Below, piece by piece: positions 6,768-57,856 of a DNA stretch of 64,000 nt. Location of the stretch: NCBI GenBank assembly GCA_913057515.1, contig CAJXOJ010000006.1:1-64000 (forward strand). The letters are read 5' to 3'. The DNA is from an uncultured Cycloclasticus sp. GTDB taxonomy: Bacteria; Pseudomonadota; Gammaproteobacteria; Methylococcales; Cycloclasticaceae. Both the position numbers and the translations under genes were made by a program. The first letter of the stretch is position 1; each line of letters begins with the position of its first letter. The notes under the pieces are model-generated. The model had not been told where the DNA came from. It saw only the letters and a list, made by a program, of their open reading frames with translations, and did not search any database.

Positions 6768-7778
6768 TTAACCTAGCTGAGGTACAGCCTGTTGGGCCCG
6801 GGTAAGAAGATACCTAACGGCAACCTCAGGTGCAAGCCCCTCATATAGAATACGGTACGTTTGTATACAAATAGGCATATCAAGTGACCATTTTTTGCAG
6901 ATGGCATGTACTTCACGGGCCGCATGTATACCTTCTACTTCTTGCCCAATGGTTTGTTTAGCGTCTTCAGGTGTTTTGCCTTGGCCGAGTTGTAAGCCTA
7001 GACGGCGATTACGAGATTTGTCGTCTGTACAGGTTAATACAAGGTCCCCAACGCCTGCGAGACCAAGAAACGAACTTTCTGAGCACTGATAGACATGACC
7101 AAGCTGCACCATTTCAGTCAAGCCTAGTGTAATTAAGGCTGCGCGAGCATTTGCTCCAAACCCTAATCCGTCGGAAATACCGGCAGCAATGGCGAGTATA
7201 TTTTTCATTGCGCCGCCAATTTCGGCGCTGGCAATATTGTCGCTCGGAAAGGCTAAAAAGTTTGAGGTTCTAATGATGTCAGCAACAGAGGTGGCGACTT
7301 TAATGTCAGGAGAGGCAACCACCACAGCGGTTGGTAAATTTTGCGCTACTTCAAGTGCAAAACTGGGCCCAGATATTAATGCGATATTGGTATCTTTCCC
7401 CAAGGTATCAAAAACGACTTCATGAGCGAGAAGGCCGGTATCGGTTTCAAACCCTTTGGTTATCCAAGTAACAAAGCAGTCCTCTTGGAGGACAGGTTGG
7501 CACTTTAGTAAGGTTTCTCTGAAGGCGTGGCTGGGTACAGCGAGCATTAAAAAAGCATGCTCAGCAACCGTTTTTTCTAAATTATCTGAAACGTTTAAGG
7601 TGTTAGGAAAGTCAGTACCTGGAAGGAATCGTTCATTACAGTTAGTTAAACGGAGTTGCTTAATATGAGTAGGGTTATGCCCCCATAACGTAACATGGTG
7701 ACCTGACCTGGCCATCATAATGGCCATGGCCGTACCCCATGAGCCAGCACCAAGAACTGCTATTTTCTTTGGGGTCAT
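6768..7778 (-). CDS. gpsA: Glycerol-3-phosphate dehydrogenase [NAD(P)+]
   Basis: Reduces dihydroxyacetone phosphate to sn-glycerol-3-phosphate for phospholipid synthesis, in the cytoplasm. The 336 residues include the Rossmann motif [12 protein letters not shown] at the N-terminus, the WITKGFE and SGPSFA stretches, the catalytic lysine region [34 protein letters not shown]-like segment (here ITLG), and the C-terminal EVEGIHAA. It is the last gene of the minus-strand group regulator-rhodanese-secB-gpsA, 14 bp after secB, and ends 4 bp from the convergent trmL. Confidence 0.97.
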   Translation of the reverse strand: [336 protein letters not shown]

Positions 7779-7792
7779 GTTGGGCTGTTTAT

Positions 7793-8254
7793 TTAGTTTG
7801 CTTTGCTACTGTCATTTTCTTGTATGTGTTGAGCATATAAGGCGTCAAAATTTACCGGGTTTAGCAGCATTGGTGGAAAGCCGCCTTTAGTGACAAGCTC
7901 GGAAACCACTTCACGTAAATAAGGGAATAAAACACTGGGGCAGAAACTTCCTAACAGCGGGCCTATTTCTGAATCAGAGAAGCCTTTAACACCGAAAATT
8001 CCTACTTGAGTGGCTTCCACAAGGTAGGCTACTTTATCGTTATTTTTAACGGTTACCGTCACGGTAATGGATACTTCAAAAAGATCCTGAGGTGCTTTTT
8101 TTGCGTTGCTGTTTAAATTGATATCGACAGCAGGGTCCCATTTTTCGGTAAAAACCAGAGGGGTATTAGGCGATTCAAAAGACAGGTCTTTTACAAAAAG
8201 CTTTTGAATTGCAAATTGCTTTTCAGGTGCTGCAGAGGGTTCGGTAGAGGCCAT
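7793..8254 (-). CDS. secB: Protein-export chaperone SecB
   Basis: Tetrameric cytoplasmic chaperone that keeps preproteins unfolded and delivers them to SecA. The 153-residue protein has the typical core FAIQKLFVKDLSFESPNTPLVF and the conserved SecA/substrate-binding stretch LFPYLREVVSELVTKGGFPPMLLNPVNFDALY near the C-terminus. It lies between the rhodanese gene and gpsA. In enterics grxC sits beside secB in this cluster; here it is absent and the two genes are only 32 bp apart. Confidence 0.97.
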   Translation of the reverse strand: MASTEPSAAPEKQFAIQKLFVKDLSFESPNTPLVFTEKWDPAVDINLNSNAKKAPQDLFEVSITVTVTVKNNDKVAYLVEATQVGIFGVKGFSDSEIGPLLGSFCPSVLFPYLREVVSELVTKGGFPPMLLNPVNFDALYAQHIQENDSSKAN

Positions 8255-8286
8255 ATGGGTTCCAGATAACAGATTAAGATAAAGGT

Positions 8287-8712
8287 TTAGTTTTTAACGA
8301 GTGGCATACTAGCGTCTTCCCACGCTTGGATGCCACCACTTAAAGCATATACGTTGCTTAGGCCGAGCTTACTTAAAGTTTTGCAGGCTTCATCAGATCG
8401 TGTGCCAGACTTACAATAAAATAGAAGTGGGCGGCCTTCGTATTTACCTAGCTTTTCAGCATGGTCCTTTACCTCAGGAAGAGGAATGAGTATGGCATCT
8501 GAAATATGGCCGCTTTTAAAATCGCCTTTGTTACGTGTATCAATAACAACGGCATCTTCACGGTTAATCAGTCGGACAGCTTCGGAAGGGGAGATTAGTT
8601 TATATTTGCGAGTAAAATCACTAAAAATGCTTTGTAGCAGTAGGACAATAACAAACAATAGTGCAACAAAAAGGAGGCTATGATTGCTTATAAATTCAAA
8701 ATAAATATCCAT
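8287..8712 (-). CDS. Membrane-anchored rhodanese-like sulfurtransferase (YibN type)
   Basis: Single-domain rhodanese of 141 residues. An N-terminal transmembrane helix (about residues 11-30) places the domain on the cytoplasmic face by analogy with YibN. The rhodanese domain (about 38-138) has the active-site loop YCKSGTRSDEAC with the persulfide-forming cysteine, and the CH2A-like DTRNKGDFKSGHI motif. It probably carries sulfane sulfur; its substrate is unknown. It follows the ArsR-type regulator gene by 28 bp and precedes secB, so it likely shares their transcript. The regulator-rhodanese pairing supports a role in persulfide handling, which is inference. Confidence 0.9.
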   Translation of the reverse strand: MDIYFEFISNHSLLFVALLFVIVLLLQSIFSDFTRKYKLISPSEAVRLINREDAVVIDTRNKGDFKSGHISDAILIPLPEVKDHAEKLGKYEGRPLLFYCKSGTRSDEACKTLSKLGLSNVYALSGGIQAWEDASMPLVKN

Positions 8713-8740
8713 TTAGGGGGAGCCTTGGTGTTCGATTAGG

Positions 8741-9049
8741 TTAACAATAATTTTTTTTTAATAACTGAACTAAATGTATAGCGACTTCCTCAGATACACT
8801 GTAGAGCACTTGGGTCGCATTTTTGCGGTGATGTAGAACACCGCTATTACGCATAATTGCAAGGTGTTGAGAGACATTACTTTGCGTAGACCCAACGAGG
8901 TCAATTAGTTGTTGAACCGTTTTTTCATCATGCCCTAATTCGCAAATAATTTTTAACCGAATAGGGTGAGAAAGGACTTTTAGGAGTTCTGCGGCCTTGT
9001 TTATCTCGCTATCGCAGCTGATCAGTTTGTTAACGGCAAGATTGCTCAT
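8741..9049 (-). CDS. ArsR/SmtB-family winged-helix repressor, persulfide-sensor-like (BigR/SqrR type)
   Basis: The 102-residue ArsR-family DNA-binding protein has the recognition helix region GSTQSNVSQHLAIMRNSGVL. It lacks the metal-site ELCVCD motif of ArsR. Instead it has Cys36 in RLKIICEL and a final Cys102, positions that correspond to the cysteine pair which forms a sulfide bridge in the persulfide sensors BigR and SqrR. Cys12 is extra. The gene is divergent from gpmI and directly upstream of a rhodanese gene. A repressor that lets go of DNA when persulfides accumulate is therefore the best guess. Family confidence is high; the ligand is inferred. Confidence 0.85.
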   Translation of the reverse strand: MSNLAVNKLISCDSEINKAAELLKVLSHPIRLKIICELGHDEKTVQQLIDLVGSTQSNVSQHLAIMRNSGVLHHRKNATQVLYSVSEEVAIHLVQLLKKNYC

Positions 9050-9081
9050 GATGGGGTGCCTTTGGGTTAGCTATTAAAGAG

Positions 9082-9113
9082 TTATATATCGTAAAATGAT
9101 TCGAATTATATAT
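9082..9113. promoter_or_regulatory. Candidate operator between the ArsR-type gene and gpmI
   Basis: The 99-bp divergent spacer holds an 8-bp perfect palindrome ATTCGAAT (9099-9106) and two copies of TTATATAT (9082-9089 and 9106-9113) spaced 24 bp apart. Such symmetric AT-rich sites are typical for ArsR-family repressors. Binding is inferred only. Confidence 0.4.
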
Positions 9114-9148
9114 GTTCATTATAACAAGCAAATCGTGGAGATAGCATT

Positions 9149-10702
9149 TTGAAACAACATTTAGTGAGACGGCCTATCGTTTTAATGATTTTAGATGGCT
9201 TCGGTTACTCTAAGTCGACAGAGGCTAATGCCATCAATACAGCGAGTACACCAACTTGGGATAAGTTATGGGCAACTCGACCTAAAGCCTTGTTAGATTG
9301 CTCTGGTTCAGCGGTAGGTTTACCTGACCGGCAGATGGGGAATTCAGAAGTGGGACACTTGCATTTAGGTGCTGGTCGATTATTACCGCAAACCCTTACC
9401 CAATTAAATAATGAGGTTGAGTCGGGTGAGTTTAAAAAGAACATCGTTCTTTGTGATCTCGTCAATGAGGTGATTTCTAACGATAAAGCGCTGCATGTTG
9501 TGGGTTTGTTATCAGCTGGTGGTGTGCATAGTCATGAGGATCATATCCAAGCGATGCTTGAAATGGCGGCAGAAAAAGGCGTTAAAAAGCTTTATTTGCA
9601 TGCCATTCTCGATGGTCGAGATACGCCACCGAAAAGCGCTCAGGCTTCTTTGGAAAAAATGGATACGGTATTTGAGCGCCTTGGTGTGGGTAAAACGGTA
9701 TCAATAATTGGTCGCTTTTATGCGATGGATAGAGATAATCGCTGGGACAGGGTTCAGCTTGCTTATGATTTGCTAACGCAAGGCAAAGCGGATCATTCAG
9801 CTAGAACGGCAGTTAATGGGCTATTGTCATCATATGAGCGCGACCAGACAGATGAATTTGTACTGCCTACGAGTATTCACCCTGAAAGCGAAGCAGCGGT
9901 AAGCATTGAGAATGGTGATAGCGTCGTCTTTATGAACTTCCGGTCAGATAGAACACGTGAATTAACCAGGGCATTAACTGAAGCAGAATTTAATGAGTTT
10001 GAACGAGAGGTGGAACCCTCACTGAGTCAATTCGTTTGTTTAACAAAATACCATGAAGACTTTACCTTGCCGGTCGCCTACCCACCTATTGATGTTAAGA
10101 ATGGATTTGGTGAAGTATTGGCGCAACAGGGCTTAAAGCAGCTTCGAATTGCGGAAACAGAAAAGTATGCGCACGTTACCTTTTTCTTCAATGGCGGTGT
10201 GGATGTGCCGAATGAAGGAGAAGATCGCATTCTCATCCCGTCACCGAACGTTAAAACGTATGACCTGCAGCCGGAAATGAGTGCGCCAGAGCTGACCGAT
10301 AAACTCGTTGAAGCGGTCTTATCGGGTAAATATGATGCCATCGTTACTAATTATGCAAACTGCGATATGGTGGGTCACACGGGTGACTTTGAAGCGGCGG
10401 TTAAAGCGGTTGAAACGATTGATGTATGTATTGCTAGGTTACTAGAGGCGCTTGATCAAGTGGGTGGTGAAGTGTTTATCACAGCAGACCATGGCAATGC
10501 AGAACAAATGACTGACCCTACATCGAGCCAAACGCATACTGCACATACAACTAACCCAGTTCCATTTATTTATGTGGGGCGCTCAGCAACACTCGAGCAG
10601 GGAGGTGACTTGGCTGATGTGGCGCCTACATTACTTGCGGCTATGGGCATTCAGCCACCAAGCGAGATGAGCGGTCACAGCTTGTTACATTTAGCCGACT
10701 AA
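9149..10702 (+). CDS. gpmI: 2,3-bisphosphoglycerate-independent phosphoglycerate mutase
   Basis: Interconverts 3- and 2-phosphoglycerate in glycolysis and gluconeogenesis with two Mn ions. The 517-residue length is normal. Motifs include the first metal ligand Asp16 in MILDGFG, the phosphoserine nucleophile Ser66 in MGNSEVGH, DGRDTPP, and the second metal site TADHGNAEQM followed by HT near the C-terminus. The start is TTG with a GGAG ribosome site eight bases before; no ATG is available upstream in frame near the family start. It heads gpmI-envC-ctpA-deacetylase, the same order as E. coli gpmM-envC-yibQ but with ctpA inserted. Confidence 0.97.
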   Translation: MKQHLVRRPIVLMILDGFGYSKSTEANAINTASTPTWDKLWATRPKALLDCSGSAVGLPDRQMGNSEVGHLHLGAGRLLPQTLTQLNNEVESGEFKKNIVLCDLVNEVISNDKALHVVGLLSAGGVHSHEDHIQAMLEMAAEKGVKKLYLHAILDGRDTPPKSAQASLEKMDTVFERLGVGKTVSIIGRFYAMDRDNRWDRVQLAYDLLTQGKADHSARTAVNGLLSSYERDQTDEFVLPTSIHPESEAAVSIENGDSVVFMNFRSDRTRELTRALTEAEFNEFEREVEPSLSQFVCLTKYHEDFTLPVAYPPIDVKNGFGEVLAQQGLKQLRIAETEKYAHVTFFFNGGVDVPNEGEDRILIPSPNVKTYDLQPEMSAPELTDKLVEAVLSGKYDAIVTNYANCDMVGHTGDFEAAVKAVETIDVCIARLLEALDQVGGEVFITADHGNAEQMTDPTSSQTHTAHTTNPVPFIYVGRSATLEQGGDLADVAPTLLAAMGIQPPSEMSGHSLLHLAD

Positions 10703-57165: not shown

Positions 57166-57856
57166 TAGCGTCAGCTAAAAAAATCATATCCCATACGCCA
57201 TGGCCAAGACGTAAGCCACGGTTTTCAAATTTAGTTAATGGCCGGTGCTCTGGCCGCTCGGCATAATGAGGTTCAGTTGAGTTAGTAAAGCCCGGGTGGG
57301 CGTTTAGGGTGCTCATTATATGCTCGGCATAATTTTCCCAATCAGTTGCCGCATGAAATCGCCCGCCTGTTTTAAGTGTCGAGTGAATGAGGTTTAAGAA
57401 CTCTGTTTGCACGATTCGGCGTTTATGATGTCGTTTTTTATGCCAAGGGTCGGGGAAAAAAAGTTGCACACAATCTAGGCTGTGCTCAGGAATGGCCTGC
57501 TGAAGTACTTCAATTGCATCGGTATCAAATAAACGAATATTGCTTAGCTTCTTTTCAAGAATGATGCGCAATAAATGCCCAACACCGGGGCGGTGAACTT
57601 CAATCCCGATAAAATTCCTATCAGGATTGTTTTCAGCCATGGTAGCCAAACTTTCGCCATTGCCAAAGCCAATTTCTAGCGTAATGGGGTGCTTGTTAGA
57701 AAATAATTCGTCAGGCTTAATTCGTACGCTTGAATCTGAGCCATACAAGGGCCAGCCGGTTTTAATGGCGGCTTCTTGCCCAGGGGTTAGACGGCCTTCG
57801 CGTTTTACAAAACTACGAATACGTCGTAAAAAATCGGGGTTGCTCTTCTCGCTCAT
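57158..57856 (-). CDS. trmB: tRNA (guanine-N(7)-)-methyltransferase
   Basis: Makes m7G46 in tRNA variable loops using SAM. The 232 residues contain motif I TLEIGFGNGESL, FIGIEVHRPGVG, the catalytic region LFFPDPWHKKRHHKRRIVQ and the C-terminal FENRGLRLGHGVWDMIF. It follows the thiSG gene by 13 bp, as thiS-thiG-trmB do in Pseudomonas. Confidence 0.97.
   Translation of the reverse strand: MSEKSNPDFLRRIRSFVKREGRLTPGQEAAIKTGWPLYGSDSSVRIKPDELFSNKHPITLEIGFGNGESLATMAENNPDRNFIGIEVHRPGVGHLLRIILEKKLSNIRLFDTDAIEVLQQAIPEHSLDCVQLFFPDPWHKKRHHKRRIVQTEFLNLIHSTLKTGGRFHAATDWENYAEHIMSTLNAHPGFTNSTEPHYAERPEHRPLTKFENRGLRLGHGVWDMIFLADAIK

Follow-up and report, generated by a model that had tools for sequence, protein, structure and literature searches.

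A two-cysteine ArsR regulator ahead of yibN as a candidate persulfide-released repressor at an old gammaproteobacterial locus

What does a small ArsR-family regulator encoded directly ahead of a membrane rhodanese sense, and how far does its control reach? The question is raised by a locus in the 64,000-nucleotide stretch of DNA analysed here (the window), which comes from an uncultured Cycloclasticus sp. On the reverse strand, arsR (8741..9049) encodes a 102-residue ArsR/SmtB-family protein (Pfam HTH_5, 44 bits), whose closest named records belong to Cycloclasticus genome bins (91, 84 and 73% identity). In the open reading frames of the window, 28 bp separate it from the next gene on that strand, yibN (8287..8712), whose 141-residue product has an N-terminal hydrophobic segment and one rhodanese domain (Pfam Rhodanese, 68 bits) with the active loop CKSGTR (C100, codon 8413-8415). 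The gene occupies the slot of E. coli yibN, and judged by sequence the neighbour of arsR is a YibN-type membrane rhodanese. Still on the reverse strand follow secB (7793..8254), 32 bp past yibN, and gpsA (6768..7778), 14 bp past secB; it is the spacing that suggests co-transcription of these two genes. The 32-bp yibN-secB gap (8255-8286) does not contain grxC, the gene found at this place in E. coli, and a short gap here was also seen in many of the arsR-bearing loci discussed below. On the forward strand gpmI (9149..10702, with a TTG start as listed) diverges from arsR and is followed by an ORF that is the counterpart of E. coli envC. An Rfam search of the window returned no match.

The initial annotation had described a BigR/SqrR-type cysteine pair next to a rhodanese, and this description holds. 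Both cysteines are present in the 102-residue ORF, C36 (codon 8942-8944) within RLKIICEL and C102 (codon 8744-8746) as the final residue, 66 residues apart; the rhodanese with its CKSGTR loop does begin 28 bp downstream; and the reported lack of an ArsR metal motif agrees with an alpha3 helix (residues 45-52 of the model) that has no cysteine, no CxC and no RexT-type pair. A third cysteine, C12, is not conserved among homologues. In phmmer searches of the PDB the best matches were BigR (1.4e-15), YgaV (4.6e-14), HlyU (2.6e-11) and SqrR (4.5e-11), each of which aligns a cysteine to C36 and to C102. The AlphaFold model (pLDDT 91) places C36 in alpha2 and C102 just past alpha5, and Foldseek ranked BigR (3pqj) first (TMq 0.83, rmsd 1.3, 38% identity), followed by HlyU (2), NolR (3), YgaV (4), mycobacterial SmtB (6) and SqrR (14). 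Since NolR and SmtB stand at ranks 3 and 6, the fold alone cannot single out persulfide sensors. By sequence and modelled fold together, the protein is most like BigR, with HlyU, YgaV and SqrR also close. It misses the cut-off of the BigR equivalog model NF040642 (71.4 bits versus 155), a model matched by 23 of 23 members of our set A3 at E 1e-10 or better, and a search of its own genome with ArsR gave no second match at E 0.01. Persulfide-sensing ArsRs (SSN cluster 4: BigR, SqrR, HlyU and YgaV) occur near rhodaneses, according to the available part of PMC10509353, and the predicted features of the window's regulator (fold, cysteine pair, an alpha3 without a metal or RexT site, an adjoining rhodanese) are those of this group.

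Conservation helps to weigh other ligands. Among 118 homologues from the loci described below, C36 is kept in all and C102 in 114, three of the four exceptions being Cycloclasticus. The other conserved Cys or His columns are H28 and H62, each 118/118; C22 is partial (30/118), five homologues have any cysteine within alpha3, and one has an alpha5-type D-x-H or H-x-x-H/E motif. Extra cysteines at position 22 (30/118) and position 74 (22/118) were observed in L006, L011, L012 and many order-level loci. An ArsR/SmtB-type sensor of metals or metalloids would fit the broad NCBIfam ArsR/SmtB metalloregulator model, which the protein matches at 75 bits (cut-off 55), the metal sensors also returned by Foldseek (best at rank 6), and the derepression of the E. 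coli ygaVP operon by tributyltin, as given in the accessible text of PMC9774250. Such a sensor would have to manage with no alpha3 CxC, with H28, H62 and the partial C22 as the conserved residues besides C36 and C102, and with an alpha5 motif that is found once in 118 homologues; moreover, no metal transporter is among the identified neighbours of arsR (six query genes). We consider it very unlikely. The pair might instead act as a thiol/disulfide or peroxide switch, with C36 and C102 closing to an ordinary disulfide when oxidised and only an incidental tie to the rhodanese. In SoxR of Hyphomicrobium, oxidation links the equivalent cysteines by a disulfide (PMC10451225, in part). The peroxide-responsive RexT, in contrast, uses two alpha3 cysteines (PMC10509353, in part), of which the window's ArsR has none, and in the same partial text HlyU, with the same cysteine pair, did not react with H2O2. 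The association with the YibN loop, described below, also points to sulfur chemistry, and an oxidation switch is on this evidence an unlikely account.

The neighbourhood of the regulator proved to be shared widely. A close ArsR was found in 176 of 251 genomes of the order and in 194 of 370 genomes of the class, the latter representing 141 of 272 genera. From these 176 and 194 genome matches we selected 118 loci (the best-scoring and at least one per family code, 69 family codes in all), the class loci being drawn among the matches listed, at about 2e-43 or stronger; the Cycloclasticus genome G001, whose arsR carries a stop codon, was excluded, L160 stands in for L067 from the same genome, and Deltaproteobacteria matches (32-34% identity) were left out of the neighbourhood comparison. 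In 114 of the 118 loci (65 family codes) arsR is followed on its own strand, at no more than 472 bp, by a gene for a YibN homologue, and secB comes after yibN in 103, some loci being cut by contig ends. Divergent gpmI is present in 77, and envC is divergent in 29 of the other 41. The loci without yibN are L106, L111, L140 and L149; in L140 (G354) and L149 (G403), arsR sits beside gpmI and is followed by what look by eye like outer-membrane, adaptor and efflux-like genes. In a tree of 60 locus ArsRs with four known sensors the 60 form one clade (SH-aLRT 97), the known sensors being very long-branched. At the same place the annotation of E. coli K-12 has trmL, cysE, gpsA, secB, grxC and yibN divergent from gpmM and envC, without arsR. 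The arsR-yibN pair, mostly ahead of secB, is thus an old gammaproteobacterial arrangement, and in the old order of gpmI divergent from yibN-secB-gpsA, arsR is an old member. A recent insertion of arsR in Cycloclasticus was rejected because the arrangement is found across order and class. The suggestion that the operon had pulled secB and gpsA into its control has to be turned around, as their order with yibN and divergent gpmI is old and occurs in E. coli without arsR.

The presence of the regulator was then compared with the state of the rhodanese active site. We scored a locus as lacking ArsR when its genome had no profile match at 1e-22 and the fetched locus had no ArsR ORF at 1e-3. Of 176 non-matching class genomes, 72 were searched for SecB and 60 had it; these 60 and E. 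coli were read, four Cycloclasticus loci were added and two second SecB copies were left out. The status of the four Cycloclasticus rests on searches of their genomes and loci, that of E. coli on its annotation and locus ORFs. YibN was not found in five of the ArsR-lacking loci read (L183, L195, L219, L220 and L230). Among loci with SecB and a readable YibN loop, C-x-x-G-x-R is present in 96 of 103 with arsR versus 10 of 60 without, and 4 of those 10 are Cycloclasticus that lack arsR. The hydrophobic N-terminus of YibN was found in 105 of 111 loci with arsR and 31 of 33 without. E. coli YibN has an Asp at the position of C100, which agrees with a cysteine placed at the opposite side of the loop (PMC12282094, in part) and with the result, in the available text of PMC10215317, that with thiosulfate E. 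coli YibN gave no increase in cellular sulfane sulfur. Where arsR is missing, then, the active site of YibN usually appears decayed.

Could this covariation reflect shared ancestry only, with no functional link? Independent pairs of loci with and without arsR were compared on a tree built from SecB, GpsA and GpmI fragments, which itself leaves some room for that explanation. Of 24 pairs, 15.4 differed in the same direction, none in the opposite one and 8.6 were ties (median p 6e-5); with Cycloclasticus removed the result was 15.4 versus 0 of 20 pairs, and on a quick tree 16.3 versus 0.002 of 25. A close contrasting pair, L154 and L191 (tree distance 0.39), shows the covariation as well, which speaks against ancestry alone. 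When well-supported branches only were used, 9 pairs remained (4.8 versus 0.1, p 0.0625), or 7 pairs on the quick tree (p 0.125), as ancestry alone would allow. The catalytic Cys by itself gave 6.1 versus 1 (p 0.125), so most of the loop signal comes from Arg105. By counts the association between arsR and the YibN loop is therefore strong, and in the independent pairs it runs one way, but the strictest test falls short of formal significance; shared ancestry as its sole cause seems to us improbable. Counting pairs does not show whether arsR was lost or gained; because the gene order is shared, we infer repeated loss.

Cycloclasticus itself is a poor exemplar genus for the arsR-yibN system. The regulator is present in 12 of its 18 genomes. 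In four that are 98-100% complete (G003-G006) arsR is absent and yibN is kept beside gpmI; the single-contig genome G001 (L004) has an in-frame TAA at arsR codon 18, with the remainder readable and both cysteines included; and G009, G016 and G017 have another residue in place of C102. Two of these genomes, G009 and G017, have a cysteine at position 74. Loss of C102 need not abolish function, since SoxR with its second cysteine replaced retained a weak polysulfide response (PMC10451225, in part). These gaps, together with Cycloclasticus spacers that hold no ArsR-specific motif, could mean that the regulator of this genus is a relic in decay that hardly controls yibN any more, and the system does seem to be fading in some of its species. 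The lineage of the window shows a different picture, with an intact ORF, both cysteines and a dN/dS of 0.07 for arsR between G000 and G002, which indicates purifying selection on arsR there. We hold the relic reading for the genus to be rather unlikely.

The spacer between arsR and gpmI was read by eye and from an alignment of 16 Cycloclasticus spacers. A TATAAT on the reverse strand (9118..9123), with an upstream TG of the extended -10 type, is the likely arsR-yibN promoter, and a TAAAAT on the forward strand (9093..9098) the likely gpmI -10; the two presumed boxes are about 20 bp apart. The block around the TATAAT and the GTAAAAT block of the gpmI -10 are kept in Cycloclasticus genomes with and without arsR. 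An ArsR-specific block in these spacers was accordingly rejected, and the conserved blocks, being common to genomes without arsR, are read as promoter parts. The palindrome ATTCGAAT that the initial annotation had noticed in the divergent spacer is present (9099..9106, no strand), and its candidacy as an operator was rejected. It occurs once in the 64-kb window, where 1.45 copies are expected and 75 of 100 shuffles held at least one; it is in 2 of the 16 aligned Cycloclasticus gpmI spacers (G000 and G002 only) and missing from the other 14; and it is in 2 of 118 arsR upstream regions. The SqrR-type site ATTC-N8-GAAT was likewise set aside in the window, where its single match lies far off at 57720 (1.55 expected), and it was found in none of the 118 arsR upstream regions.

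Outside Cycloclasticus a different picture was obtained. A motif search of 107 non-Cycloclasticus upstream regions gave a 34-bp promoter block, TATTATTGTATAATGTTTT..TTATAAA, with a likelihood of 728 versus 142-147 in three shuffles, which kept base composition only and had fewer starts (15 versus 60 for the real set). This TATTATTGTATAATG block is found in promoters from families outside Cycloclasticus. Dyads inside it, ATTAT-N3-ATAAT and TATAA-N8-TTATA, occur in 22 and 12 of the 118 upstream regions (shuffle maximum 4). Here, too, and for the 1% threshold that follows, shuffling preserved nothing but the base composition. Above the 1% shuffle threshold the block is found in 53 of 107 non-Cycloclasticus loci with arsR versus 2 of 55 without, where only the contrast matters, the 107 regions being also the training set. 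That it overlaps a TATAAT is what one would expect of an autorepressor acting locally. In 23 genomes chosen for carrying it, the block occurs about once per genome: of 30 near-matches, 22 are at arsR, and the 8 found elsewhere compare with 7 in a reversed control, so that no sign of a regulon outside the locus was seen at this stringency. The block was absent from the Cycloclasticus regions (0/11) and the other loci of the order (0/34), and the common dyads reach at most 4 of those 34. The 34-bp block marks loci with arsR outside Cycloclasticus and is a candidate promoter block. Separately, a TAGAC-N3-GTCTA palindrome nearer gpmI was seen in 9 of 107 regions with arsR and in none of 60 loci without; it lies some 170-270 bp upstream of arsR in L087, L090, L093, L098, L107, L112, L113, L120 and L128.

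Taken together, a local repressor of arsR-yibN that is released by persulfide is the best reading of these data, to which we would give a probability of about two in three. What is observed is the cysteine pair and fold, a pair and an arsR-yibN linkage that are deeply conserved, the association of arsR with the canonical YibN loop, and, in many families other than Cycloclasticus, a promoter block that goes with arsR. The ligand, the repression, the sulfur bridge and the acceptor are put forward by us as follows. ArsR would be a winged-helix repressor, active as a homodimer, with C36 and C102 as its sensor for sulfane sulfur (organic persulfides and polysulfide). In its reduced form it would bind the promoter ahead of arsR and hold down arsR-yibN; persulfide would then bridge C36 and C102 with extra sulfur atoms, and ArsR would let go. 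The inner-membrane-anchored rhodanese YibN would thereby be made and could pass excess sulfane sulfur to a thiol acceptor. The pair would work like ygaV-ygaP of E. coli, at another chromosomal place and with another ArsR clade. Read-through into secB and gpsA is plausible because the gene spacing is tight, and their control by ArsR in this way can be put forward tentatively, at somewhat less than even odds. That gpmI is controlled too seems unlikely, a shared spacer being the basis for it. Finally, one may speculate that an ancient sulfane-sulfur switch has its seat at the gammaproteobacterial locus for protein export and phospholipid precursors: a distinct persulfide-sensing ArsR clade would govern SecB and GpsA along with YibN and so couple envelope biogenesis to the sulfur state of the cell, and loss of the sensor, as in E. 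coli, would have left YibN without its sulfurtransferase loop and as a membrane-insertion partner of YidC; we regard this larger picture as doubtful.

That persulfide-sensing ArsRs lie near rhodaneses is already known (PMC10509353, in part). Literature searches aimed at the arsR-yibN arrangement found no paper describing it, subscription papers and preprints being mostly outside their coverage; the distinct clade at the secB-gpsA/gpmI locus, the association with the YibN active site and the promoter block are new to these targeted searches. YibN has been named a YidC partner encoded in an operon with grxC, secB and gpsA (PMC12282094, in part), and its activity is stated to be unreported in the available text of PMC10215317. 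The present result names a regulator beside yibN that is missing from the E. coli locus, and predicts which lineages have a functional YibN sulfurtransferase and which do not. It also extends the persulfide-sensing ArsRs by a branch that is widespread and sits at a housekeeping locus; its candidate promoter block is open to direct testing.

Among known systems, E. coli YgaV-YgaP is like the present pair in that a two-cysteine ArsR stands upstream of a membrane rhodanese. YgaV is an autorepressor of ygaVP that is released by sulfide and forms a C31-C98 tetrasulfide, and its cysteines are spaced by 67 residues (PMC9774250, in part), compared with 66 in the window's ArsR. The ygaVP locus differs from the arsR-yibN locus, the anchor of YgaP is C-terminal (PMC10215317, in part) whereas that of YibN is N-terminal, and YgaV falls outside the clade of the 60 locus ArsRs (SH-aLRT 97, long branches). 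Parts of ygaV-ygaP do occur at the arsR-yibN locus in split form, because a YgaP-like membrane gene separates arsR from yibN in 10 of 118 loci with arsR versus 0 of 60 without, as counted with a model built from five of these genes, which themselves match Pfam YgaP-like_TM (PF11127) at 50-53 bits. In L114 (G408) two YgaP-like TM genes follow arsR, each then followed by a rhodanese match. As another tie to sulfur, the genome of the window encodes a BpPRF-like dioxygenase-rhodanese fusion (L236 1120-2163, G000 contig C1), a 347-residue protein with metallo-beta-lactamase and rhodanese parts and near full-length likeness (phmmer 9.2e-57). The protein was found through the Blh model NF040641, which was discarded as unspecific (below cut-off here, and matching 13 of 14 control genomes), and was judged by phmmer instead.

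BigR of Xylella fastidiosa is the closest solved protein in sequence and fold, with its cysteine pair aligned; the likeness stops at 38% identity, and the window's ArsR fails the BigR equivalog cut-off. The BigR operon differs from arsR-yibN. SqrR, SoxR and sHdrR resemble the window's ArsR in their cysteine pair. SoxR of H. denitrificans has a C50/C116 pair, also 66 residues apart, through which it senses sulfane sulfur by a polysulfur bridge; unlike the regulator proposed here, it controls sulfur-oxidation genes (PMC10451225, in part). SqrR differs in its site, ATTC-N8-GAAT (cited in PMC9774250, in part), which was not found in the 118 upstream regions. The E. coli locus itself, yibN-grxC-secB-gpsA divergent from gpmM-envC, matches that of the window in gene order and strands, and differs from it in having grxC and cysE, in having no arsR, and in a YibN that carries Asp at the place of C100.
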